Part shown: positions 2,136-21,380 of the stretch, piece by piece
Layout: every line of letters starts with the position of its first letter
Position numbering within the stretch: position 1 is the first letter of the stretch
IMG/VR virus record: IMGVR_UViG_3300020578_000472
Coordinates: 1-22,219 of that record
DNA length: 22,219 nucleotides
Direction: 5' to 3' (one strand)
DNA from: a virus
Program-made: the position numbers and the translations under genes
The notes under the pieces: model-generated
The model's database searches: none
Told to the model about the DNA's origin: nothing
Seen by the model: only the letters and a program-made list of their open reading frames with translations

Positions 2136-2546
2136 TTAGGGACCAGGATAAAGGCGGCGAATGGTCATATCAGGAATGATAAAGCGACAACGTTCGTAAG
2201 CAATGTCATCACCAGGCGTAAATCGTAACGATGCATCGGGAAATCGCCTTACCATCCTGTCCATCGCGTCGGCAATTTCTTTTCCATCAGGGTTGTATTG
2301 CACAAGTATGACTTCCCATTGCTGCAGCACGCTTACAATTCCCACGCCCGCTTCGGGCAGTAATTCTGGATATTGTCGCATTGTCACTTCTAGCCCTGTC
2401 ACCTTCCATTCCGTTGGCACGCTTTTTTGTCCCACCACATACACAGCAGGAATGCTTGTGCCATTCGGAAAAGTGTAAGAGCCAATTAAATTAGGCGCTG
2501 CCGAAAGTAGTTCAACAATGGTCTCCCGAAGCTGAGTAATGTTCAC
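2136..2546 (-). CDS. Probable tail terminator / tail completion protein
   Basis: I place the start at GTG 2546, giving 136 aa beginning MNITQLRETIVELLSA. The frame extends upstream to a TTG at 2588, but that would read through the terminator hairpin. The 3' arm of this hairpin supplies a GGGGAGG 10 nt before the GTG. Size, the N-terminal amphipathic helix and the alternating strands (WEVILVQYN, RCRFIIPDMTIRRLYPGP) fit the small proteins that cap siphovirus tails, as does its place next to the major tail protein. Alternatively it could be another minor tail protein; no diagnostic motif is seen. Confidence 0.6.
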   Translation of the reverse strand: MNITQLRETIVELLSAAPNLIGSYTFPNGTSIPAVYVVGQKSVPTEWKVTGLEVTMRQYPELLPEAGVGIVSVLQQWEVILVQYNPDGKEIADAMDRMVRRFPDASLRFTPGDDIAYERCRFIIPDMTIRRLYPGP

Positions 2547-2548
2547 AA

Positions 2549-2576
2549 TAAAAAAGCCTCCCCGTAAGGAGAGGCT
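2549..2576 (-). terminator. Rho-independent terminator after the major tail gene, overlapping next RBS
   Basis: On the minus strand a 9-bp stem (2576-2568 with 2563-2555, one G-U pair) with a UUAC loop is followed by UUUUUUAUU. It lies 25 nt after the major tail protein stop and would reduce transcription of the downstream tail genes. The 3' arm contains GGGGAGG, which is also the only Shine-Dalgarno candidate for the GTG at 2546. Confidence 0.85.
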
Positions 2577-2600
2577 AACAGAAAACAATCAAGCGAAGGC

Positions 2601-3179
2601 TTAAGAGTTAGGAGCAGTTGGGATGATACTGCCAGAGCTAGTAGCATTTTGGTGAACACCAATGCGACCACGGCTGATCAGGTCAAAGGTGCATTCAACG
2701 AGGTTATCAGCAGGATAGCTTTCGTTGTAGTTCATCACAGTGGCAACATAAGCCACACGGTCGTAGTAGTAAGTGCTGCCACTCACGCCAAGCTGCTTGT
2801 TGATCTCAACGTACACTTCTTGGTTTTTGTCGTAGCGAATGGCGCTAATCACCTGGAAAGCTTCATCAAAGCTATCAGGAATAAATACCGTGCCGTCTAC
2901 GTCCTTCTGAAAATAAGAAGTGATGGAAGCAGTGGCCTGACTGGTGACGATCACGCTATCAGCAAAGCCACCGCCGCCAAGCAGGTAGAATTCAGTGTTG
3001 CCGTCGTTGAAAGCAACAGAAGCCGTCGTGGCTGCTTGCAGCGTGTAAAGAGTGGGAGCGCCGCTAACAGTGAACGTAGCGCCGGATTGAGTGATAACTG
3101 GACGGCCAGTGCCGCTGATAGAACCAACACGTACAATTACGTCTTGGCTCTTAACCAGTTCTGTGGGGTGGTAGAGCAT
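2601..3179 (-). CDS. Major tail protein
   Basis: A 192 aa protein from ATG 3179, preceded by a GAGG about 7 nt upstream. It is rich in Thr, Ser, Val and Gly with alternating beta strands, as expected of tail-tube subunits, and ends in a flexible SSGSIIPTAPNS. A C-terminal segment typical of tube proteins is present (DNLVECTFDLISRGRIG). It is followed by a strong terminator, consistent with a very abundant protein that needs more mRNA than its downstream neighbours. Position between the head-tail connector genes and the chaperone/tape measure supports the call; no named Pfam motif is claimed. Confidence 0.72.
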   Translation of the reverse strand: MLYHPTELVKSQDVIVRVGSISGTGRPVITQSGATFTVSGAPTLYTLQAATTASVAFNDGNTEFYLLGGGGFADSVIVTSQATASITSYFQKDVDGTVFIPDSFDEAFQVISAIRYDKNQEVYVEINKQLGVSGSTYYYDRVAYVATVMNYNESYPADNLVECTFDLISRGRIGVHQNATSSGSIIPTAPNS

Positions 3180-5850: not shown

Positions 5851-7044
5851 TCAGCGCTCCTTAGAGACGGAGAGAGGGGATTTCCAAGCATTCTGCAGCT
5901 TGTCCATGTAGGACGAAGGAGCAGACATGGGGGAAGCGATGGAAGCAACAGCTTTGCGCAGTTCTTCGGTGGCGGCGGAGTCGCTACGGGGAGCAGATTC
6001 AACCAGGGTGTCGAACATGGCGGTCACGTAATCGTCGGAACGGTCCGACAGATCAGCGTCACCACGCACGGCCTTAATAGAAGCTTCCATGATTTCACGA
6101 GCAGAAAGGCCCGCGAAGTCGAAAGCAGAGTCAAGGGAAGTACGGGCTTTGTCAATGAGAGCAATGCGCTCTTCAACAAGGCTGTCCACGTTCACTTGCT
6201 TAGCAGCGTCAAGGTCAAGCTTGAGGCTTTCCACTTCTTCGGCAAGGGCATCGGCCCGCCCTTCGGCAGAGTCGCACTTACCTTTCATTTCTTTTTGCAT
6301 GGCGTCCATTTCTTCCTTCATTTTGGAAGCTTCGGACATCATGCCATCGTACATTTTCTTCATGTCCTCGTAGGACATTTTGGCGTCTTCCCGTTCTTTG
6401 GTAATAGCCAGAGCTACGCTCTCGCTCACCTCAAACTCGGCGCCATCAAAGTTGACTTTGGCAGTCATAGATGAGTCCTCTATATGAGAAATTAGAGAAG
6501 GATCGGCAGCATCCAGACGATCTAGATGGAGCTTCACTTGCGGGCCAGCGCGGCCCCTGCGCACAACAGCAATGTGATTTCCGTTGATTTCCTTTTGGAT
6601 GCCATCGTAATTCTCACCACTGTCAGTAACGCCAGGCGTCGCTTCATAATTGACGCGATAACCAGCACTGACCTCCTTCGCATCACCACGCATAATGCGC
6701 TCAATGGCATCTTTGTCAGTGATAGTCATGACGGCACGGACAAAGCCGTTGTCATACACCACTTCAGTGCCACTAAAGCCCACTTGATAGTCCTTTGTAT
6801 TGGCGCTATCTAAGAGAACTGGAGGATGCTCAAGAGTGATTGCTTTGCCCGCAAATGAGGCCAAGCTTTCAGGAGACGCCACCTCCGCTTCGGGACGATA
6901 TTCACGGCGAATAGAGCCATCTGCATCGGTGTAATGTTGTACACCAGTGCGTGCGATGGTTGCCCAAGCACGAAGATAACCTTCGGGGGTTAGCTCGTAC
7001 TTGTCAATCGGCGCTACGTCGTAACGAAAGCATGTGTCGCTCAT
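5851..7044 (-). CDS. Prohead protease (DUF2213) fused to scaffold-like coiled coil
   Basis: A 397 aa protein. Residues 1-190 match the DUF2213 head maturation protease pattern: His73 in ITLEHPP and Ser126 in EVSAGYR are the likely catalytic pair, and VRRGRAGPQVKLHLD closes the domain. Residues about 210-300 are a highly charged coiled coil (MKKMYDGMMSEASKMKEEMD and following), then a helical tail. The second part most likely acts as the scaffold and is removed during maturation, as in phages where protease and scaffold share one gene. The ATG at 7044 overlaps the 5' side of the antisense regulator region. Upstream is AT-rich but no clear sigma-70 promoter is seen. Confidence 0.85.
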   Translation of the reverse strand: MSDTCFRYDVAPIDKYELTPEGYLRAWATIARTGVQHYTDADGSIRREYRPEAEVASPESLASFAGKAITLEHPPVLLDSANTKDYQVGFSGTEVVYDNGFVRAVMTITDKDAIERIMRGDAKEVSAGYRVNYEATPGVTDSGENYDGIQKEINGNHIAVVRRGRAGPQVKLHLDRLDAADPSLISHIEDSSMTAKVNFDGAEFEVSESVALAITKEREDAKMSYEDMKKMYDGMMSEASKMKEEMDAMQKEMKGKCDSAEGRADALAEEVESLKLDLDAAKQVNVDSLVEERIALIDKARTSLDSAFDFAGLSAREIMEASIKAVRGDADLSDRSDDYVTAMFDTLVESAPRSDSAATEELRKAVASIASPMSAPSSYMDKLQNAWKSPLSVSKER

Positions 7045-7105
7045 GCCTATACTCTATCAATTAATCATATGCGAGATAGACTTAAATAGGTTATTTCGCC
7101 TAAAA

Positions 7106-7402
7106 ATGCAGCACATTCAGCATCGCCGTCTCACCACGCGCCTCAAAGCGCCCATTGTCACCATTCAAGAAAGTAGGCGGATTATCGGAGAAAGAATGAA
7201 AGAAGCTCGTTTAAACTCTGGAATGTCACAGGGAAATGTCGCAGAAATGCTTCATTGTGATCAAACTACAATCTCACGAATGGAACGTGGACAAATCTCC
7301 CCTGACTGCGCCCAAATTCGTATTCTTAGTTCTATTTTTCAGCTTTCTATTTTGTACCTGCTCGGTTATCCTACGTTTGTGGTTTCCGCAGTAGAAAATT
7401 AA
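7106..7402 (+). CDS. XRE-family helix-turn-helix regulator, antisense within head operon
   Basis: The frame is open from about 7034 to TAA 7402. I choose ATG 7106 (98 aa) because it leaves the divergent gene intact and keeps the whole first helix. ATG 7197 has a better Shine-Dalgarno (GGAG) but would cut the domain. The HTH spans residues 28-62: IGERMKEARLNSGMSQGNVA, then DQTTISRMERG, a textbook XRE/Cro-CI fold. The hydrophobic C-terminus (FQLSILYLLGYPTF) resembles the continuation seen in cyanobacterial and phage XRE proteins. It is the only plus-strand gene inside 14 kb of minus-strand genes. A TATACT at 7049-7054 could be a -10 element; no -35 is evident. It ends 4 nt into the opposite gene. 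Confidence 0.78.
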   Translation: MQHIQHRRLTTRLKAPIVTIQESRRIIGERMKEARLNSGMSQGNVAEMLHCDQTTISRMERGQISPDCAQIRILSSIFQLSILYLLGYPTFVVSAVEN

Positions 7403-11583: not shown

Positions 11584-12261
11584 TTAAACGGGCACCACTG
11601 GCGCCTGCTGCCTGAAATACTCAACGCGACATTTGCAACGGGCTCCGCATTCACAGCGCACACCAGGAAGTGGAAGGCTTCCAATGGGGACCATTCCGCG
11701 AGAGGCATAGTTAAGGCAATCCTGACAATGCACGGCTTGGTTGTCCAAGATGCGTCGCATCAACGAAAACCCACGTTGTTGTTCGCGCAGTTCCGTACCT
11801 TGCCAATAAGATCCACGAACACTTTGAGCGTAAAGGCCGATACGAGCAATAGCCATGGGAGCAGAAACACGCCCATCCAAAAGGTCACGTACAAAGCCCT
11901 GAAGATAAGTGTATTCCGAACGAAGCCTCTGACCGATGCGGCCATATTCCGCACTGCCCATCTTACTTCGTCCGCCATAGCCAATAGTCGCTGCTTGAAT
12001 ATGACCCGCTTTAATTGCTTCGCGGACACTATCTTGCCATTGATCAAGCGTAATTGAACCATCGCCTAACATCCTCGTAAAACGCTTGAGTTGCGTTTCT
12101 AGTTTATCAATGCGACCATCAATCAGCATGCCTACTGCAGCTTTGCTGAGAAAGCGGCCTTTCTCATTGCGATAACGTCCACTACGTTGGTCATACGACC
12201 ATTCAGCGTCCATCCTGCTGGACAAAATGACGCTGCTGAAAGAGGATAAGTTATTCAGCAT
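11584..12261 (-). CDS. MuF/SPP1 gp7-like head morphogenesis protein with Cys cluster
   Basis: A 225 aa protein; ATG 12261 overlaps the portal stop by 11 nt. Met17 (12213) is an alternative start. The central part is helical (residues 50-160) and the C-terminus carries a Cys-rich signature, C179xxC182 then ASRGMVPIGSLPLPG, then C203xC205xxxC209xC211. That end is the metal-binding tail found in phage head morphogenesis proteins encoded directly after the portal. Such proteins are minor capsid components, sometimes ejected with DNA. Gene order (terminase, portal, MuF) supports the call. Confidence 0.78.
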   Translation of the reverse strand: MLNNLSSFSSVILSSRMDAEWSYDQRSGRYRNEKGRFLSKAAVGMLIDGRIDKLETQLKRFTRMLGDGSITLDQWQDSVREAIKAGHIQAATIGYGGRSKMGSAEYGRIGQRLRSEYTYLQGFVRDLLDGRVSAPMAIARIGLYAQSVRGSYWQGTELREQQRGFSLMRRILDNQAVHCQDCLNYASRGMVPIGSLPLPGVRCECGARCKCRVEYFRQQAPVVPV

Positions 12262-14299
12262 TGTCGGCCTCTAGTAGCTCTTTGAACTGCGCTGGAGCCT
12301 CTTCCTTCCATTCTTTCATGGCATTTTCAATGTCCTCGTCTGAGATGAATGCAGCCTCATCAATGCCAGCAAGCATTAGTCCTTCTACTTTCATGGGATC
12401 AATGGCATCCACTTTGCTACTAACAAGCTTTGCTGGTCCCTTCCGTTCAGGGTCAGGGTCAGCTTTACGCTTGCGGGCTACGATGGTTTGACGCTCTTCC
12501 TTTGACATGGCTTGAGCTTTGGCTTTAGGGAGGCACTTGGGCTTACCTTCCTTTTCACCACGTCCTCCGCATGGCCCCATAATTTCCCCATTGGCACCAA
12601 TCCTCACCCATTCTTCCTTGAACCATTTGTCAAGGTCGTCGGCGTGGATTTCGCCAGAGTCTCCCTTAAAGGCTCCAGCGGTGGAACCATGCTTTTCTTT
12701 GTACATGCGCTTGTACTGCTGCACCACATAGCCACTGGCATAAGCAGACGGCCACACCTTAAACTTTGCCTTTGCTGCGGCCACTGCACGACTATGCAGA
12801 GCCTCGTCAGTGAATTTCACATCGCCACGCTCGTGCTCCAAATCGCCCGGCAGATAAAGACCAGCAGAATCTTCCACTTCACGGCTTCCGTCCATGGGAA
12901 GCGTGCCATTTTCTTCGTTCAACGGATCGCGTCCGCCAGGAGGCACTTTCATTTGCCCTCCCTGCTGGGGCAGCTCACGAGGGAGCGATGGGTCAAGAGT
13001 GAGTTCCATTGACCATTCAGAGCCTCCGTAGCGAGCATCTGCCACTTCCTGCGGATGGAGCACGCCAAGTTGGATGTAGCGCCCATCAACGGCTGCTACA
13101 CGCGCACGCACGTCAGCCTTTTCGCGCTCGTTTAGTTCAAAGAGATCATTAAACTTAATCCGCCATGACTCAGGCAGCCGCCCATTAGTCGGGCCGTCCT
13201 TACTGAGCATGATCATTTTCATTAAATGATGCAGCGGACGCTTGTAGTGAGAAGCTTGATAATCACCAAGGTGCTTCGCAAAATCACGCTCCTCGCTCCG
13301 GCCAGTAGAGCCCAGGCCTCCAGGACTCTCACCAAATAAAATAGTATGGGGAATCTGAGAAGCGCCAATAATATCAATGCGAAGCTTTTCTAGGATTTCA
13401 CCAACGCCACCAAAGTTGCGACTAATAAATTCAAGCTCTTCTTTTTCTGCGTCAATTGCATAACCGCGATAAATGCTTTTGCTCATATCATTGAGCACAA
13501 GGCGATCACGCACGTCCTTCTCTTTGCCGGCGGCAAGCATAGAAGAAAGACCGCGAAGTTTATGCACAAAAATATCAAATTCTGTCAGCAAAGTTGCAGC
13601 AGAACTAATGCCAGTGGAATAAAAGCGGAAGCTGTCGTACACGCTTTGCAGCGTGCTCATTCCCCACCCATAATTTCTCTGTCGAATGCGATAAGGCAAC
13701 CATTCGCCGTCAAACCTGAGAATACGGTCTTTATGAATGTTGACCAATTGTGGCTGCCTAATTAGATCGCCAGAAATGATTTGATAATACGTTGCCTTGG
13801 AATAATCGTAGAGGCTATCTTCGTTAATCATTGGCGCAATCTGCCAACGATCTAGCACTTCCATGCCTTCAATGGAGCGAATATTTCTATAGTCAACAGG
13901 CTGATCAGCAGACCGCCCATCGTCAATGTAAAGAAGAATGACAGCGCCGCCGAAGAGGCGGGCATTCTTGGAAGCCAAGCCGAGATTTTCAAGGATGTAT
14001 AAGTCTTCAATCACCTGTTCAATGCCCGTCACTTCTTCCGCCGCTGCGCCCTCTCCGCCAAATAACACTTTGAAGCCTTTCCGCGTGGACTGCTCAGCAA
14101 CGATGTCCACGATGCGCTTGGGAATCCACTCGCTATAAAGGTTTTCAAGCTCTTCTTGGGCGAGAAAAACGATGGGAGTGGAGCCGGTGTATTGGCTCTT
14201 ATCTCTTCGGGTGCCCATGCCAGTGAGAGCGTTTACGAGCCCGTCCACTCGCAGGCCTTCATTGCCATTGTGACCAAGATCAACTAGCTCTTCCGACAT
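12251..14299 (-). CDS. Portal protein (DUF1073-type) with C-terminal DUF5872 extension
   Basis: A 682 aa protein from ATG 14299. Residues about 1-440 have the DUF1073-type portal layout: YSEWIPKRIVDIVAEQSTRK near the start, ARLFGGAVILLYIDDG at 113-128, and IPHTILFGESPGGLGSTG at 316-333, then DYQ.SHY and the stem helices. The portal is the dodecameric DNA gate of the capsid. Residues about 505-625 form a separate domain resembling DUF5872: AKFKVWPSAYASGYVVQQYK, DKWFKEEWVRI, GPCGGR and KPKCLPKAKA. The family is usually about 450-500 aa without this extension. Linker and tail are acidic and Pro-rich. It overlaps the MuF gene by 11 nt. Confidence 0.87.
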   Translation of the reverse strand: MSEELVDLGHNGNEGLRVDGLVNALTGMGTRRDKSQYTGSTPIVFLAQEELENLYSEWIPKRIVDIVAEQSTRKGFKVLFGGEGAAAEEVTGIEQVIEDLYILENLGLASKNARLFGGAVILLYIDDGRSADQPVDYRNIRSIEGMEVLDRWQIAPMINEDSLYDYSKATYYQIISGDLIRQPQLVNIHKDRILRFDGEWLPYRIRQRNYGWGMSTLQSVYDSFRFYSTGISSAATLLTEFDIFVHKLRGLSSMLAAGKEKDVRDRLVLNDMSKSIYRGYAIDAEKEELEFISRNFGGVGEILEKLRIDIIGASQIPHTILFGESPGGLGSTGRSEERDFAKHLGDYQASHYKRPLHHLMKMIMLSKDGPTNGRLPESWRIKFNDLFELNEREKADVRARVAAVDGRYIQLGVLHPQEVADARYGGSEWSMELTLDPSLPRELPQQGGQMKVPPGGRDPLNEENGTLPMDGSREVEDSAGLYLPGDLEHERGDVKFTDEALHSRAVAAAKAKFKVWPSAYASGYVVQQYKRMYKEKHGSTAGAFKGDSGEIHADDLDKWFKEEWVRIGANGEIMGPCGGRGEKEGKPKCLPKAKAQAMSKEERQTIVARKRKADPDPERKGPAKLVSSKVDAIDPMKVEGLMLAGIDEAAFISDEDIENAMKEWKEEAPAQFKELLEADNAE

Positions 14300-16857: not shown

Positions 16858-17048
16858 ACTTTGAAAGCTTCCTGCAGGAGCCCATTGGCCAATGGTTGCC
16901 AGTATCCTCGTCAATGCTGGCTTTTAACGGGGGTTCCGTCGTTGTTCTGGACTCTCGCTCAGAGGTGAGTTGAAGCACCTCTACAAATCAAGGCAGAGCA
17001 CTGGCCGCACCAGTTGATCGTCTATTGCGACGAAACTCTGCCCCATTT

Positions 17049-17123
17049 GCCCCTGTAGCCCAATAGGCAGTAGGCAACGGATTTAAGCTCCGTACAGTGT
17101 CAGTTCGACTCTGACCAGGGGTA
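17049..17123 (+). tRNA. tRNA-Leu (anticodon UAA), with a short variable loop
   Basis: The cloverleaf folds by eye: acceptor 17049-17055 with 17116-17122 (one G-U pair, otherwise perfect), T8 A9, D stem 17058-17060 with 17073-17075 and GG in the loop, a perfect 5-bp anticodon stem 17077-17081 with 17089-17093, loop TTTAAGC with anticodon TAA at 17084-17086, and a perfect 5-bp T stem 17099-17103 with 17111-17115 around TTCGACT. The discriminator is A123 and CCA is not encoded. The variable region is only 5 nt (17094-17098), whereas bacterial tRNA-Leu normally has a long arm. Phage tRNAs often help decode codons rare in the host. Confidence 0.9.
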
Positions 17124-17282
17124 TCCGCTATTTCCAGGCGCTCTTGTCAATTTGACAGGGGCGATATTTTTGTCCTCGATATTGAAGCCACATTGCTGGA
17201 CGATGCACCCATCGCCACCATTGTGAAAAAGCTTCATGCTCTGCCTCTAAAGAATAGGGGACGCCGCGATACACAAGTGTAG
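17115..17282 (+). pseudogene. Open frame without start codon just after the tRNA
   Basis: After an in-frame TGA inside the tRNA (17112-17114) the frame is open to TAG 17282. It reads protein-like from about 17145 onward (CQFDRGDIFVLDIEATLLDD, then APIATIVKKLHALPLKNRGR). There is no ATG or GTG before residue 40. An AGGGG at 17156-17160 precedes the ATT at 17166, a rare start type. It could be a gene remnant whose 5' end was displaced by the tRNA, or a gene using an unusual start. No family is recognised. Confidence 0.3.
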
Positions 17283-17370: not shown

Positions 17371-17568
17371 TTATTTTTCTTTGCGGTGAATGTAAGTTTT
17401 TAATTCATGCAAATAGTTGCGGATCATTGCAGCTTTCTCCAAATGCCAGGGGTCGCGATGGAGAAAATATAAGCGCATGTGTTCATCAACTGCTTTTAGC
17501 AATTGATGAATCACTGGATTCCATGGCTCTCTAATGGGCGTGTTGAACGTCCGCCTGCGCTCGTCCAT
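17371..17568 (-). CDS. Small unknown basic protein
   Basis: I choose ATG 17568 (65 aa, MDERRRTFNTPIREPWNPV) rather than the ATT-type start 18 nt upstream. It overlaps the end of the metallophosphoesterase gene by 38 nt. The C-terminal half (HLEKAAMIRNYLHELKTYIH, then RKEK) has the helical layout of small phage proteins of unknown function that end in LR.YI..LK.WI. No enzymatic motif is seen. It is the last gene of the minus-strand right-arm cluster. Confidence 0.6.
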   Translation of the reverse strand: MDERRRTFNTPIREPWNPVIHQLLKAVDEHMRLYFLHRDPWHLEKAAMIRNYLHELKTYIHRKEK

Positions 17569-18103
17569 TAGAACGGAAATAATCAATGACCATTTCCAAT
17601 GGTACTGGAGAAAAATTATTTCTTTCTACACAGGCATTAAAATACCTTCCATCTGCCTGTCCATCTTTTATCGCTAAATGACAGTGCAAATGGCCATGCA
17701 CATTGCCACGATAGTGTCCTTGCAAATTATCGGGATGCACTGGAATGTGCGTGAAAACTATGCCACCAGGCATTAGCGATCCTGGCTGATGGAAATGAGC
17801 ACCACGAATGTCTTCAAAATGTTCAGCATAGTCTTTGAGCTTAAACGTGTCGTGATTGCCTCTAATGAGAATTTTTCTGCCATTGCATTTGGCTAAGTTG
17901 GCTAAGCTTCTGCGAGGGATGGCTACATCTCCTAAGTGATACACAGTGTCTTTTTGACGCACCACTGCGTTCCATCGTTCCACCATAATTTCGTCCATCT
18001 CTTCAACAGAATTAAAAGGACGCAATGGGGAACCATCGGGCTGAATAAAAGACAAGCTTTTGGCGTGTCCCCAGTGGGTGTCTCCAATGACGAAGGCGCT
18101 CAT
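17531..18103 (-). CDS. Calcineurin-like metallophosphoesterase
   Basis: A 190 aa protein with the complete metallophosphoesterase set: D8-x-H10 (IGDTHWGH), GD at 58-59 (YHLGDVA), GNHD at 82-85, H119 (FTHIPVH) and GHLH at 137-140. These residues bind two metal ions. Members hydrolyse phosphoesters; the substrate (nucleotide, RNA 2',3'-cyclic end or protein) is not predictable from sequence. It follows the ribonucleotide reductase beta gene, so a part in nucleotide turnover is plausible. ATG 18103 lies directly after a terminator U-tract, with no clear Shine-Dalgarno sequence. Confidence 0.88.
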   Translation of the reverse strand: MSAFVIGDTHWGHAKSLSFIQPDGSPLRPFNSVEEMDEIMVERWNAVVRQKDTVYHLGDVAIPRRSLANLAKCNGRKILIRGNHDTFKLKDYAEHFEDIRGAHFHQPGSLMPGGIVFTHIPVHPDNLQGHYRGNVHGHLHCHLAIKDGQADGRYFNACVERNNFSPVPLEMVIDYFRSNGRAQADVQHAH

Positions 18104-18125
18104 AAGAAAGGGAGCTTGCGCCCCC
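18104..18125 (-). terminator. Terminator hairpin between RNR beta and phosphoesterase genes
   Basis: On the minus strand GGGGGC (18125-18120), loop GCAA, GCTCCC (18115-18110) form 6 bp with one G-U, followed by TTTCTT and then immediately the ATG at 18103. The GNRA tetraloop favours folding. The U-tract is short and interrupted, so partial termination is likely. Confidence 0.65.
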
Positions 18126-18132
18126 TAGTTTA

Positions 18133-18876
18133 TCATTCCCGCCCGTAAGAAGGCAGATCGTAGTTAGGGCTTTCAAAAAACGCCACTTGCCTGCTGCTGC
18201 GCGTGGCAGCCATCTCAGGAGCCTTGCCCGTAAAGAACAACGACTCCGACTGTCGCAGCCAGAAATCCTTGTTCAGCCATTGCACAGTGCTTCGGCCAAG
18301 CTTTTCAAACAACCATGCGGCAGTAGCTGCCCGAAGCTTATTCAGGCTATGCGAATCCTCTTCACCCAGTTCCTTGGCAACCATGCCATGAATGGCCGTA
18401 TGCACGCGCTCATCGCGACTAATATCCGCCGAAACCGTCCGCATGCCCATGTCGCCATTTTGCCGAAAGAACGGCAATGCCACAAAGAAAATACTCCGCT
18501 CCAAAATGGAAGCTTTATGAATGGGGTGAGCAGGATGCTCCATCCATGCCTTTAAAATGCTCATCACTTCCTTCTCAGCCTTTGCATTAGTGCCATGAGC
18601 CATGGCAATGTAATTCAAAGCCTGGTCATGGCGCTCCTCATCTTCCTGATTGGAACGCAATGCCTCAATCACACCAAGAGTGGAAGGCAGTTCACGAGCC
18701 ATGCCTTGCTCCAAAAGCTCCTTTACGGGCATTTCTAAATGCCGCAGCGCCAAAGCTTTAAAAATGGTTTCTTCTGAACCTTCAGCAACATTTCCTTTTC
18801 CCACAGGCACGGCCTGCCAAGGACGCTTTTTAGCAATGGTGGACAAATAGGGCGAGTTCTCAACAGTGGCAATCAT
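18133..18876 (-). CDS. Class I ribonucleotide reductase beta (R2-like), no tyrosyl-radical Tyr
   Basis: A 247 aa ferritin-like protein. The diiron/dimanganese ligands are recognisable: E80-x-x-H83 (EERH), E126 (SILERSIFFV), E156 and H159 (SRDERVH), with E48 the likely first ligand. The residue four after H83, where E. coli NrdB has radical-bearing Tyr122, is Leu87; the next Tyr is Tyr89. The tail FESPNYDLPSYGRE has the C-terminal Tyr (239 or 244) used for radical transfer to alpha. It is shorter than E. coli NrdB (376 aa). A protein of this kind is reported next to the class I alpha in P-SSP7-like cyanophages. It supplies the radical for the alpha subunit 69 nt upstream. Confidence 0.82.
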   Translation of the reverse strand: MIATVENSPYLSTIAKKRPWQAVPVGKGNVAEGSEETIFKALALRHLEMPVKELLEQGMARELPSTLGVIEALRSNQEDEERHDQALNYIAMAHGTNAKAEKEVMSILKAWMEHPAHPIHKASILERSIFFVALPFFRQNGDMGMRTVSADISRDERVHTAIHGMVAKELGEEDSHSLNKLRAATAAWLFEKLGRSTVQWLNKDFWLRQSESLFFTGKAPEMAATRSSRQVAFFESPNYDLPSYGRE

Positions 18877-18890
18877 TCTTAATAAAGCGG

Positions 18891-18919
18891 AGGAAAAGAA
18901 AGGGCCGACAGGCGGCCCT
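18891..18919 (-). terminator. Terminator between RNR alpha and beta genes
   Basis: AGGGCCG (18919-18913), loop CCTGT, CGGCCCT (18907-18901) form a perfect 7-bp stem on the minus strand, followed by TTCTTTTCC. On the plus strand no T-run follows, so it acts on the minus-strand transcript, 26 nt after the alpha stop and 15 nt before the beta ATG. Confidence 0.8.
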
Positions 18920-18944
18920 CAATAAAGAATCAATGGGAAAGAAA

Positions 18945-20393
18945 CTATTCAGCACAACTGGAGCAAAAGCCAGCAGTCATGTCGCAAGCGACAGCATCCC
19001 CCTTAACCTCGTTGTCATCGAGGCCAAACATGCTCTTGAAATCGTCATCTAGCGCTGCAAAAGCATCGTCTTTTCGTTGGGTGTCAGGCAACACTTGCAA
19101 CGAATAGTAAAGACTAGTCTGAGGAGAATCAAGCCAATCTTTCAGGAACTGGCGGTCATAAACGACTACATCGCTCCAACTATTAAAACTATAGCCATGG
19201 AAAAGACCCGTTTGCTGATAGAGAGCCACAATGCCATTTGCCACACGGAAATAGTTGTCCCAACCAACGGTTTCAGCGATTTCTACTTCCCCGTAGTCAA
19301 AGCTCTCCACTCCAAATGTGCCAGAGTCTCTGTCCACTAAGCGTCCCACTGGAGGGGCAATTTCAGGAGTGGTCGTAAAGCCTTTCTTGTCTAAATAACG
19401 ATAAGAGCAGGAGGCTGTGGGGGCAATGCAAAAAGCTCGTTTCATGCCATGAGCACGAGCTACTTCTGCTGAATCTTCAATGGCAATATCAAGCAGCCAA
19501 ACAATATGACCAGCATGCGTGTCATGCCAAATAGTTTGCCAGTCAGAAGCATCATGATTTAAATAGGCTTCTAAAGCTTTCCCGAAATCTTCATACGATA
19601 CCTCCTCGGCAGCCAAGAAATTAGCTAAGCCAAGCATGCCAAGTCCCACTTGTTTGTCAATGACAGGCGGCAGATATTCATCAGTGTCGCCCACGCCCGT
19701 ACGAGGATGCAGCTCACAAAGCTGCTTCATGCCCTCCACAAAGGCTTCAGACAAATCAGACAGACCACATGCGCCCATATTCACATGCTGAAGCAGACAA
19801 GTGCCACGATGGGGCAAATACACTTCCAAGCAAACATTGGCACGGATGCGCTGGCCTTCATCGTCATAACGAATTTTATTAAGCCAGATGTCGCCAGAAC
19901 CAATGCCCTTCAGCAAAGCATCAATTAGTTCAGGAGAACTATTGTCCAAAAAACTATTGTCCACATTTAAACAACGCTTCACCCATGGCAGTTCTTGACG
20001 AGAAGCATTAATAAATTCAATGGCATCAGGATGGTCATAATCAAGATGCAACACTACAGCCCCATTTTTATATTTTCCACCCCGTCGTAAGATTTCATTT
20101 AATGCAGAATAAATTTTACCAAAACTTACGGGACCACTAGCTACAAGTCCTTTGCCATTTTCAGCACTCCTTTCACGCAAAGAAGACAAATGAATAGCGA
20201 CGCCCGCACCATTGCGCAGGCCATGGCTAACAAACTTCCAAGATGCTTCAATGCCATCTTCTCCCTCCATTGAATCTTCTACGGCAAATACTGTGCAACT
20301 CACGGGAAGACGACCATCATCATCTTCCATCCAGCTCTCCACCCTGCCAGTGCGAGCAATTTTTTCGCACCTTGCGCCTTCTTTGAGAATCAT
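18945..20393 (-). CDS. Class I ribonucleotide reductase alpha (short, cyanophage type)
   Basis: A 482 aa protein, against about 760 aa for E. coli NrdA, with no N-terminal ATP cone, so overall-activity control by dATP is probably absent. Catalytic residues are present: Cys33 (LPVSCTVF) and Cys199 (RGTCLLQH) as the redox pair, N186-x-C188-x-E190 (ANVCLEVY) as the active site, a loop CIAPTASCSYRY, adjacent Tyr-Tyr in TSLYYSLQV for radical transfer, and C477/C480 (GFCSSCAE) for regeneration by thioredoxin or glutaredoxin. The Tyr pair and the beta gene next door mark it as class I, although such short cyanophage enzymes have been annotated as class II. It makes dNDPs or dNTPs for replication. 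Confidence 0.87.
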   Translation of the reverse strand: MILKEGARCEKIARTGRVESWMEDDDGRLPVSCTVFAVEDSMEGEDGIEASWKFVSHGLRNGAGVAIHLSSLRERSAENGKGLVASGPVSFGKIYSALNEILRRGGKYKNGAVVLHLDYDHPDAIEFINASRQELPWVKRCLNVDNSFLDNSSPELIDALLKGIGSGDIWLNKIRYDDEGQRIRANVCLEVYLPHRGTCLLQHVNMGACGLSDLSEAFVEGMKQLCELHPRTGVGDTDEYLPPVIDKQVGLGMLGLANFLAAEEVSYEDFGKALEAYLNHDASDWQTIWHDTHAGHIVWLLDIAIEDSAEVARAHGMKRAFCIAPTASCSYRYLDKKGFTTTPEIAPPVGRLVDRDSGTFGVESFDYGEVEIAETVGWDNYFRVANGIVALYQQTGLFHGYSFNSWSDVVVYDRQFLKDWLDSPQTSLYYSLQVLPDTQRKDDAFAALDDDFKSMFGLDDNEVKGDAVACDMTAGFCSSCAE

Positions 20394-20396
20394 GAG

Positions 20397-20421
20397 ACAA
20401 CAAAGCCTGCTCCAAGCAGGC
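20397..20421 (-). terminator. Terminator just upstream of RNR alpha
   Basis: GCCTGCT (20421-20415), loop TGG, AGCAGGC (20411-20405) form a perfect 7-bp stem on the minus strand, followed by TTTGTTGT and then CTC-ATG (20393). It lies 26 nt after the stop of the 63 aa gene, so it can end that transcript or attenuate entry into the reductase gene. Confidence 0.75.
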
Positions 20422-20446
20422 CGAACGATCAGTGATTAGTTTAGCC

Positions 20447-20638
20447 TCAATCGCACAGCCCTTCAGGATCATTTCCGCTTTGAGCATCCCTTGCAAACAA
20501 TAGGGCCTCTTGCTTGCTGCGAAAATAATAGGGCTTCCCTTCATAAGCAATAAAATGCTTGAAACCAGGCCTGCTAGCACATGGCCAAACCTTTATCGCG
20601 CCCACCATAAACGGGCAAGGTAGATCATCAAAGCCCAT
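20447..20638 (-). CDS. Small unknown protein, terminator-linked start
   Basis: A 63 aa protein from ATG 20638 (MGFDDLPCPFMVGAIKVWPC). The middle, HFIAYEGKPYYFRSKQEALL followed by FARDAQ, resembles small DUF2188-like proteins with two strands and an amphipathic helix, but I cannot confirm the family. The start codon is exactly at the end of a terminator U-tract, and its AGGAGG Shine-Dalgarno is the 3' arm of that hairpin (spacing 7 nt). Confidence 0.65.
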   Translation of the reverse strand: MGFDDLPCPFMVGAIKVWPCASRPGFKHFIAYEGKPYYFRSKQEALLFARDAQSGNDPEGLCD

Positions 20639-20665
20639 AAAAAAACCTCCTGCTTTTACAGAAGG
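20639..20665 (-). terminator. Terminator whose 3' arm is the next gene's Shine-Dalgarno
   Basis: On the minus strand CCTTCTG (20665-20659), loop TAAAAG, CAGGAGG (20652-20646) form 7 bp with one G-U pair, then T7 and ATG 20638. G-U polarity shows it is built for the minus strand. AGGAGG in the 3' arm, 7 nt from the ATG, is a perfect ribosome binding site. Folding would both end transcription and hide the site. Confidence 0.8.
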
Positions 20666-20708
20666 CTAAGAACAATGGACGAGAAAATGTAGTAACGCTT
20701 GTTACTTA

Positions 20709-21086
20709 TTAAGGCATGTATTGATGGAACGCATCGGCCAGTATTTCTCTTGCATCGCTTTCTTCATCAAAGCCCTGTCGTTCAAAGATGGGATTTAACC
20801 ATTTATAAATGGCGGCAAAAATTGCGTCAGTGCGAGCCATGCTGTCCCCTCCATAGTTCTCCACTTCATACAACACTTGGTCGTAAATATTGGGAGTATT
20901 CTCTTTTTCTTCCATTGCAATCAGGTAGCCAAGGGCTGCTGCTCCTGTTTTGCTCGTGGCATGTTCGCACATGGCAAGGCGCTCTTTCAGTTCGTTGAAC
21001 TGCTCTTGAGAACCAAGGACGTGCTTGGTGACAACCTTGCTAAAGGCATTGAAGGAAGAGTCCATGGGAAGGGGAGAGGCGATCAC
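20709..21086 (-). CDS. Unknown helical protein upstream of the RNR cluster
   Basis: A protein of 125 aa from GTG 21086, which overlaps the preceding TGA as GTGA, or 118 aa from ATG 21065 (MDSSFNAFSKVVTKHVLGSQ); neither start has a clear Shine-Dalgarno. It is almost entirely helical, with segments EQFNELKERLAMCEHATSKT, YDQVLYEVENYGGDSM, DAIFAAIYKWLNPIFERQGF and a C-terminal REILADAFHQYMP. No catalytic motif is seen. First or second gene of the minus-strand right-arm cluster; role unknown. Confidence 0.68.
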   Translation of the reverse strand: MIASPLPMDSSFNAFSKVVTKHVLGSQEQFNELKERLAMCEHATSKTGAAALGYLIAMEEKENTPNIYDQVLYEVENYGGDSMARTDAIFAAIYKWLNPIFERQGFDEESDAREILADAFHQYMP

Positions 21087-21325
21087 CAGTCAGGATAGGC
21101 AAAACCAGGGGCAGAGTCAAGGGCAGGGTCAATGGAAAAGGAAGCGAGGTCTGCTTGGTAACCATCGTATTTGCCTACAGATGATTTCCAAATGCAATCA
21201 CGCTCTGGTTGGAGCTTCTCCTTGATCTCCGTAATGCACTTATTGAAATAACGACGGGCTGTGATGTGGACTTTCCACACTTGCGTGACAATCAGCGTGG
21301 TTTCTTGAGGGTCGTAGTATTTCAT
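21083..21325 (-). CDS. Unknown protein, probable first gene of the RNR cluster
   Basis: I start at ATG 21325 (80 aa, MKYYDPQETTLIVTQVWKVH); a TTG 6 nt upstream is the only alternative. A basic strand-helix region (VHITARRYFNKCITEIKEKL) is followed by an acidic, loop-rich end (DPALDSAPGFAYPDW). It overlaps the next gene by 4 nt. Three phased repeats (21392-21419) and a TTATAG (21386-21381) lie upstream and could drive the cluster. No known domain. Confidence 0.62.
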   Translation of the reverse strand: MKYYDPQETTLIVTQVWKVHITARRYFNKCITEIKEKLQPERDCIWKSSVGKYDGYQADLASFSIDPALDSAPGFAYPDW

Positions 21326-21380
21326 GCCCAAATCATAGCTTTAGCCAGTTTGTTAATTGGCATATTTACCAGCTTTCAGG

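Follow-up and report, generated by a model that had tools for sequence, protein, structure and literature searches.

In a 22,219-base virus record from IMG/VR, IMGVR_UViG_3300020578_000472 (the window, that is the whole stretch of DNA analysed here), the genes of a ribonucleotide reductase cluster on the minus strand are accompanied by GC-rich hairpins followed by U-rich tracts, one in each of the four gaps between the genes for a 125-amino-acid (125-aa) protein, a 63-aa protein, nrdA, nrdB and a phosphoesterase, in this order. An earlier note on this DNA had described them as a row of terminators, one after each gene. We consider it probable that they do not form a uniform row of this kind, but are gene-boundary insulators that carry a promoter of their own, as judged from a comparison of sequences among relatives. 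The elements ahead of nrdA and at a fifth site elsewhere in the window appear to belong to the gene that follows, and the one in the first gap may do so too; hairpins that stand before genes would be better read through that following gene than as terminators of the preceding one.

Terminator-like hairpins of the window

The whole window was scanned on both strands for single hairpins of at most 46 nucleotides (nt) followed by a U-rich tract, with a score, d, whose formula and constants go back to d'Aubenton Carafa and Lesnik. Sites with d of at least 0 numbered five, compared with 0-3 (mean 1.2) in ten dinucleotide shuffles of the window. These five strongest terminator-like hairpins of either strand are the four of the cluster, numbered here with their gaps from 1 to 4, and a fifth one that precedes a structural gene; all are on the gene strand, in gaps, and sit a few bases ahead of a start codon:

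20646-20665, minus strand: hairpin 1, in gap 1, its 3' arm (20653-20646) holding the Shine-Dalgarno sequence AGGAGG (20651-20646); d = 21.5
20639-20645, minus strand: U7 tract after hairpin 1, which is also the spacer from the Shine-Dalgarno sequence to the ATG at 20638-20636
20405-20421, minus strand: hairpin 2, the nrdA leader hairpin, followed by TTTGTTGTCTC and ATG; d = 6.6
18902-18918, minus strand: hairpin 3, terminator-like, between nrdA and nrdB (kind III in the terms used below), followed by TTTCTTTTCC
18110-18125, minus strand: hairpin 4, between nrdB and the phosphoesterase gene, 7 nt past the nrdB stop codon; d = 6.7
2556-2575, minus strand: hairpin 5, its 3' arm GGGGAGGC holding the Shine-Dalgarno sequence, followed by TTTTTTATT and GTG (2546); d = 39

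The hairpins of the fifth site and of gap 1 are the strongest by this score. As evidenced by RNA folding, the hairpins of gaps 1 to 4 have energies of -12.9, -12.7, -13.9 and -12.4 kcal/mol with z-scores of -3.6, -2.5, -3.2 and -3.1, and hairpin 5 reaches -16.0 kcal/mol with a z-score of -4.6. The basic observation of four hairpins with U-rich tracts in four minus-strand gaps was thus confirmed at each position, also by fold energy, and had if anything been understated. A simpler scan was less selective, with 35 sites versus 21.4 in shuffles, and had the four named hairpins among its top matches.

From the stem to the next start codon we count 7, 11, 25 and 6 nt in gaps 1 to 4, and from the preceding stop codon to the stem 43, 25, 26 and 7 nt. 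The earlier statement that the next start codon lies 0-15 nt beyond is correct for the stretches it named (0-14 nt), but does not hold from the stem in gap 3. Likewise, a terminator-like hairpin does separate the genes at the four gaps, but not every gene, as the neighbouring open reading frame (ORF) pairs 21083-21331 with 20709-21086 and 17531-18103 with 17371-17586 overlap. Among the 13 same-strand gaps of at least 20 nt on the minus strand, a site was found in 4/4 gaps of the reductase cluster versus 1/9 of the others, so that the clustering is real, yet not window-wide. Note that a nested terminator-like hairpin at 21808-21745 on the minus strand, with GGCCGCT...AGCGGCC around GCTCC/GGAGC followed by TTTTCTTTT (-26.8 kcal/mol, z -3.7), lies outside the scan list, which took single hairpins within the size limit given above.

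Conservation and layout of the elements among relatives

The hairpins were compared across 118 sequences with at least one of three genes, comprising viral-contig loci, the window and Synechococcus siphophage S-CBS4, its closest annotated relative in the phage collection, to which the nrdA-nrdB DNA is 70% and the nrdB protein 79% identical. Identical gap sequences were counted once throughout; 3/104 loci with a 469-nt nrdA-nrdB distance were dropped, as were loci in which the nrdA start was missing or near a contig end. The counts in the gap survey, the set of 110 hairpins, the motif bias, the convergent control and the upstream distances depend on a home-made gene caller that uses dicodon scores. 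In the gap survey, 391 same-direction gaps of 20-300 nt from 70 non-redundant loci held 102 sense and 34 antisense hairpins, with 2.2 expected from shuffles, and 425 kb of coding interiors held 4 sense and 31 antisense ones.

At the fifth site, a hairpin with d of at least 0 is present in 59/59 distinct relatives, with none on the other strand and 0.4 in shuffles. Its plan, which we call kind I, has an extended -10-like motif, TG[CT]TAnnnT, over the 5' arm, a Shine-Dalgarno sequence in the 3' arm and the U-tract as the spacer to the start codon. The motif extends across the stem base in 57/59 relatives (G[CT]TAnnnT is expected in about 4% by chance), and the Shine-Dalgarno core lies within the 3' arm in 51/59. 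The usual distance from a -10 element to the start site is about 7 nt, and the predicted +7 base is inside the loop in 57/57 and an A in 48/57. As a control, 57 terminator-like hairpins between convergent genes of similar contigs showed the motif in 2/57 and the Shine-Dalgarno core in 0/57. The corresponding features of the window are

2572-2580, minus strand: TGTTAGCCT, extended element of the -10 type that overlaps hairpin 5 in its 5' arm
20663-20668, minus strand: TAGCCT, hexamer of the -10 type that overlaps hairpin 1 in its 5' arm, assigned by comparison to a looser kind I

In gap 1 the 5' arm is overlain by TTAGCCT and the 3' arm contains AGGAGG, after which U7 and ATG follow; the motif has a C instead of a G two bases ahead of TA. 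A third group with the motif at the hairpin (7/7) is formed by endonuclease VII-like genes that stand after nrdB in relatives (L015, L120, L023 and others), in parallel to gene 49 of phage T4, the gene for its endonuclease VII. In these genes a terminator-like hairpin just ahead of the start has GCTAGnAT or a similar sequence at its 5' arm or within it, and a Shine-Dalgarno sequence or start codon was inside the hairpin in 0/7. RNAs truncated to the predicted starts of gap 1, the fifth site and gap 4 have no stable structure, at -0.2, 0 and 0 kcal/mol, respectively.

These figures bear on the plainest alternative, in which the hairpins are ordinary intrinsic terminators of single genes or short units, serving the host RNA polymerase, and are close to start codons only because gaps are compact. 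With a GC-rich stem, a short loop and a U-tract, all above chance, the hairpins do score as terminators, those between nrdA and nrdB lie near the stop codon and are often bidirectional, and for the Prochlorococcus siphophage P-SS2 a published analysis reported 22 predicted rho-independent terminators and 19 sigma-70 promoters (PMC2784084). Ordinary terminators would, however, leave unexplained the motif over the stem base and the Shine-Dalgarno sequence in the 3' arm, both of which set the fifth site apart from the control terminators, and also the near-fixed distance from hairpin to nrdA start beneath varied upstream genes that is described below. In contrast to an intrinsic terminator, the element is placed ahead of, or partly in, the start region of the next gene, overlapping its putative promoter and Shine-Dalgarno sequence, and we regard this alternative as unlikely.

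The nrdA leader follows another plan, kind II, with GCTAnnnT, 12-18 nt, a hairpin, TTT and ATG, irrespective of the upstream gene. In the window its promoter-like element is

20438-20445, minus strand: GCTAAACT, promoter-like element of nrdA, matching GCTAnnnT

A hairpin with d of at least 0 is found on the sense strand of 48/52 distinct leaders, compared with 0 antisense and 0.4 in shuffles. GCTAnnnT precedes the stem by 12-18 nt in all 48 hairpin-bearing leaders (a looser pattern occurs in 6% of shuffled intervals), GCTAGCCT is present in 21/48, and TTT comes right after the stem in 47/48. The distance from hairpin to ATG is 11-12 nt in 37/48 and 12.9 +/- 3.1 nt over all 48, while the preceding stop codon is anywhere from about 0 to 3097 nt away in the 33 measurable leaders and the genes upstream belong to 11 families, which argues that the hairpin belongs to nrdA. 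A conserved GT-rich start region lies 7-9 nt after GCTAnnnT, and the ninth base past the last T of this motif is a T in 45/46 distinct leaders, as expected of a putative -10 element with its start region. For a -35 box, the values stayed at or below 0.64 bits at every position between 30 and 5 bases ahead of GCTA. The stretch before the ATG is pyrimidine-rich and without a Shine-Dalgarno sequence, and neither such a sequence nor the start codon is inside the hairpin (0/43). Of the four leaders without a hairpin next to nrdA, L035 and L090 have another ORF in between, which leaves the whole module about 600 nt upstream; in L054 no hairpin was found within 1500 nt, and L021 is too close to the contig end to be judged. 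The ORF just upstream of nrdA in L035 and L090, and also in L054 and L021, looked AP2/HNH endonuclease-like by eye; no family search was made.

A promoter motif upstream of a terminator-like hairpin within the leader, as present in 48/52 cases, is also the arrangement of a leader attenuator. Here, most RNA from GCTAnnnT would end near +33 unless it is let through by a factor of the phage or host or by faster transcription. Promoter-proximal terminators of the lambda type and put sites place a terminator-like hairpin just downstream of the promoter, as is predicted for nrdA, and the attenuator may be pictured as a miniature of lambda tR' or of a put-like site. The position of GCTAnnnT 5' of the hairpin, the GT-rich start region and the TTT right after the stem all fit. 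On the other hand, the U-tract is broken by a G at positions 4-5 in many leaders, and the letters of the nrdA stem vary freely, so that a sequence-specific stem factor is unlikely. In contrast to lambda, no antitermination protein or site was identified, and the nrdA hairpin is only about 10-30 nt from the predicted start. We doubt that the leader works as an attenuator.

Alternatively, hairpins at RNA 5' ends could shield the mRNA from nucleases, with the U/C-rich stretch before the ATG acting as an unstructured ribosome entry rather than as a terminator tail. The pyrimidine-rich composition of that stretch and its want of a Shine-Dalgarno sequence agree with this, as does a gene of S-CBS4 annotated 'Rnase E' (NC_016766.1, 61648-62379), which bears on mRNA processing or protection. 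Protection would nevertheless not need a TTT right after the stem, and it misfits both kind I, whose predicted RNA is without the 5' arm, and kind III, whose hairpin has no promoter motif ahead of it; we find it quite unlikely. Attenuation, antitermination or protection of the 5' end, which along with a descending gradient had been suggested for the cluster as a whole, may apply to nrdA only, the gene whose predicted start site is 5' of the hairpin.

Between nrdA and nrdB, the hairpin (kind III) is found with d of at least 0 in 54/65 distinct gaps on the sense strand and in 33/65 on the other strand, versus 0.6 in shuffles. It lies near the stop codon, G[CT]TAnnnT is present in 0/54, and neither a Shine-Dalgarno sequence nor the start codon of nrdB is inside the hairpin (0/15). 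In 31/54 cases it scores in both directions, with an A-tract before and a U-tract after, and as nrdA and nrdB are co-oriented this hints at antisense transcription. The earlier description of a terminator after each gene therefore suits this gap, which looks like a plain terminator, but not the hairpins of nrdA and the fifth site, which appear to go with the following gene. In S-CBS4, hairpins are located between the nrdA, nrdB, endonuclease VII and phosphoesterase genes, and among relatives a hairpin was present downstream of nrdB in 21/69 and upstream of the phosphoesterase gene in 9/70. The window has in its gap 4

18127-18132, minus strand: TAAACT, possible -10 hexamer one base before hairpin 4, assigned from its letters

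As a test of covariation we shuffled the partners of stem arms, merging nrdA leaders with identical arms (48 to 35) and excluding 17 nrdA-nrdB gaps without five G/C before TT. The 3' arm of nrdA pairs with its own 5' arm in 32/35 versus 11.2 for shuffled partners, and the arms of the nrdA-nrdB hairpin pair with their own partner in 26/36 versus 11.4. The stems are conserved as pairing, not as letters. Stem conservation with covariation, which had been named as a check, is therefore seen in the nrdA leader, between nrdA and nrdB and at the fifth site, where position and compensating changes speak against the objection that the stems are not conserved; gaps 1 and 4 are much less conserved. The same result bears on the idea that the stems are palindromes bound by protein, that is DNA operators and not RNA structures. 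Palindromic stems near promoters would suit operators, but the stem letters change among relatives while the pairing is kept, and at nrdA and the fifth site just one of the two strands has a scoring hairpin; we give this idea hardly any credence.

GCTAnnnT was the most strand-biased of 1024 patterns of the form ABCD...X in upstream gaps, with 125 sense and 53 antisense occurrences, and GCTA[AG][GAC]CT occurs there 38 times sense and once antisense. CCATTG, about twofold commoner on the sense strand of gaps in the 70 loci and often 5-25 nt ahead of start codons, was tried as a second promoter motif and rejected: its density on the sense strand of gaps is 1.92 per kb versus 0.93 (coding 1.02-1.24), and it has no partner at a fixed distance.

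Proposed mode of expression and comparison with known systems

The following scheme concerns promoter activity, start sites, termination, sequestration and function at large, and it is drawn from the positions, conservation, pairing and motifs described above. The terminator-like hairpin with its U-tract would stop and fold shut RNA that arrives from the upstream gene, and the downstream gene would have its own promoter, the extended -10-like TG[CT]TAnnnT or GCTAnnnT without a conserved -35 box. For kind I (the fifth site, more loosely gap 1, and the endonuclease VII-like genes of relatives), RNA would start about 7 nt downstream of the motif, in the loop, which for hairpin 5 predicts a start at about 2565. 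Beginning in the loop and without the 5' arm, this local RNA would be unable to fold into the hairpin, and its Shine-Dalgarno sequence in the 3' arm would be exposed at the fifth site and in gap 1. Read-through RNA would form the hairpin and terminate at the U-tract, and any that escapes would have its ribosome site closed. For kind III, the hairpin would act as a plain terminator. For kind II, the start is predicted about 6-12 nt 5' of the hairpin, at about 20431-20430 in the window, and in S-CBS4 the RNA 5' end is predicted 7-8 nt past GCTAAGCT, so that the hairpin would lie in nrdA's own leader RNA of about 37 nt; it would insulate nrdA from upstream RNA, and it may also tune output through premature termination of some transcripts, or shield the 5' end. 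With a promoter for each gene, a descending expression gradient, as had been suggested in the earlier note, is not the natural prediction.

In a more specific form that we advance tentatively, the element would be a gene-bound unit of about 35 nt in which the same bases serve as upstream terminator, downstream -10 promoter, Shine-Dalgarno sequence and a lock that closes this sequence on upstream RNA only, while a relative of it with the promoter 5' of the hairpin would make nrdA transcripts liable to end early, no more than about 35 nt from where they begin. If the insulator reading is true, cyanophage siphoviruses separate their genes by elements that stop, start and gate expression together, and such elements would provide compact insulated promoters to try in cyanobacteria.

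Several points weigh against this reading. The RNA of nrdA itself would form the hairpin too, which insulation alone leaves unexplained, and as no -35 box is conserved, the motif may be something other than a sigma-70 promoter. Gaps 2 and 4 have modest d-scores. The hairpin of gap 1 reaches a d of at least 0 ahead of the 63-aa protein in 8/30 distinct relatives only, and its motif is without the G. The plan of gap 4 was found in the window and one other distinct sequence (L050). The stem of gap 4 also follows the nrdB stop codon by 7 nt, a spacing at which an Escherichia coli terminator nearly failed: the efficiency of tR2 was reported to drop from about 90% to less than 10% once the stop codon lay 5 bp instead of 28 bp ahead of it, and the full effect needs more than 27 nt from the stop codon (PMC4824070). 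By this precedent, gap 4 may leak during nrdB translation. In the set of 110 gap hairpins, 60 are without TAnnnT at either place, so that most terminator-like hairpins in these phages are neither kind I nor kind II. Finally, an RNAalifold consensus of a MAFFT alignment of 39/48 nrdA leaders retained only 3 pairs; stems of unequal length misalign here, which is why the partner-shuffling test was used instead.

The closest known arrangement is that of T4. According to two reports, T4 late promoters lie inside the DNA for the 5' strand of a hairpin at genes e, soc, 49, I-TevI and mobE of Aeh1, long upstream transcripts fold and hide the Shine-Dalgarno sequence, and local transcripts without the 5' strand are translated (PMC3014915, PMC2988022). 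The cyanophage elements agree with this, by motif, in having a promoter-like sequence within the hairpin's 5' strand, both at the fifth site and at the endonuclease VII-like genes, and they share the Shine-Dalgarno sequence within the hairpin at the fifth site and in gap 1. They share neither feature at nrdA, where the motif is upstream of the hairpin instead of in its 5' strand, or between nrdA and nrdB. Also unlike T4, the cyanophage hairpin has a U-tract directly after it and scores as an intrinsic terminator as well, and the motif is of the extended -10 type, whereas the T4 late sequence is TATAAATA. The phages and genes differ, and activity was tested in T4, while it is predicted from sequence in the present case.

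In T4-like phages, PeSL elements unite promoter and terminator stem-loop within a single short stretch between genes and are said to shuffle genes (PMC4503421). The present elements resemble them by motif as a composite of promoter and terminator stem-loop, and endonuclease-like genes carry them too, so that one may think of mobile promoter-terminator cassettes by which genes are shuffled from phage to phage. In 80/80 cases among the matches listed (99 matched), however, exact copies of the fifth-site element precede the same gene, and those of the nrdA element precede nrdA in 25/25. In this search for near-identical, exact-pattern copies the elements thus stay with their own genes and do not appear before different ones, and mobile cassettes are very improbable.

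Terminators and promoters have been predicted before in cyanophage genomes (PMC2784084 and PMC3037559). Our literature search gave no report of such combined elements in cyanophage siphoviruses; it left subscription papers mostly uncovered and does not prove that none exists. Six T7-like cyanophages (Syn5, P-SSP7, S-CBP1, S-TIP37, S-RIP1 and SS120-1) have no terminator-like hairpin between nrdA and nrdB, which overlap or are 17 nt apart; SS120-1 has one weak site (d 4.6) within nrdB. If the insulator reading holds, this contrast represents two ways to express the same reductase.

Genes and other features of the window

The genes to which the elements are adjacent are

20447-20638, minus strand: 63-aa protein, function not assigned, with a homologue in 79/118 loci searched
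18945-20393, minus strand: nrdA-like ribonucleotide reductase large subunit, 482 aa
18133-18876, minus strand: nrdB-like ribonucleotide reductase small subunit, 247 aa, phrog_6799
17531-18103, minus strand: phosphoesterase-like protein, 190 aa, phrog_547
2136-2546, minus strand: gene behind hairpin 5, in the head-to-tail gene block, itself without a PHROG match

Searches of Pfam and PHROG gave no match for the 63-aa protein, homologues of which are frequently found a short way upstream of nrdA. The gene behind hairpin 5 is the first one past a major-tail-like protein at 2601-3179. At 12251-14299 on the minus strand, a portal protein with a C-terminal extension is encoded, with a DUF5872 match at residues 497-606, and a small helix-turn-helix regulator-like gene at 7034-7402 is on the opposite (plus) strand within the structural block. 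A tRNA-Leu(taa) at 17048-17126 on the plus strand was the sole match in an Rfam search. It is followed at 17139-17163 by an 11-bp hairpin with a T-rich tract, probably its terminator, and a hairpin of this type is present in a family of five among the relatives.

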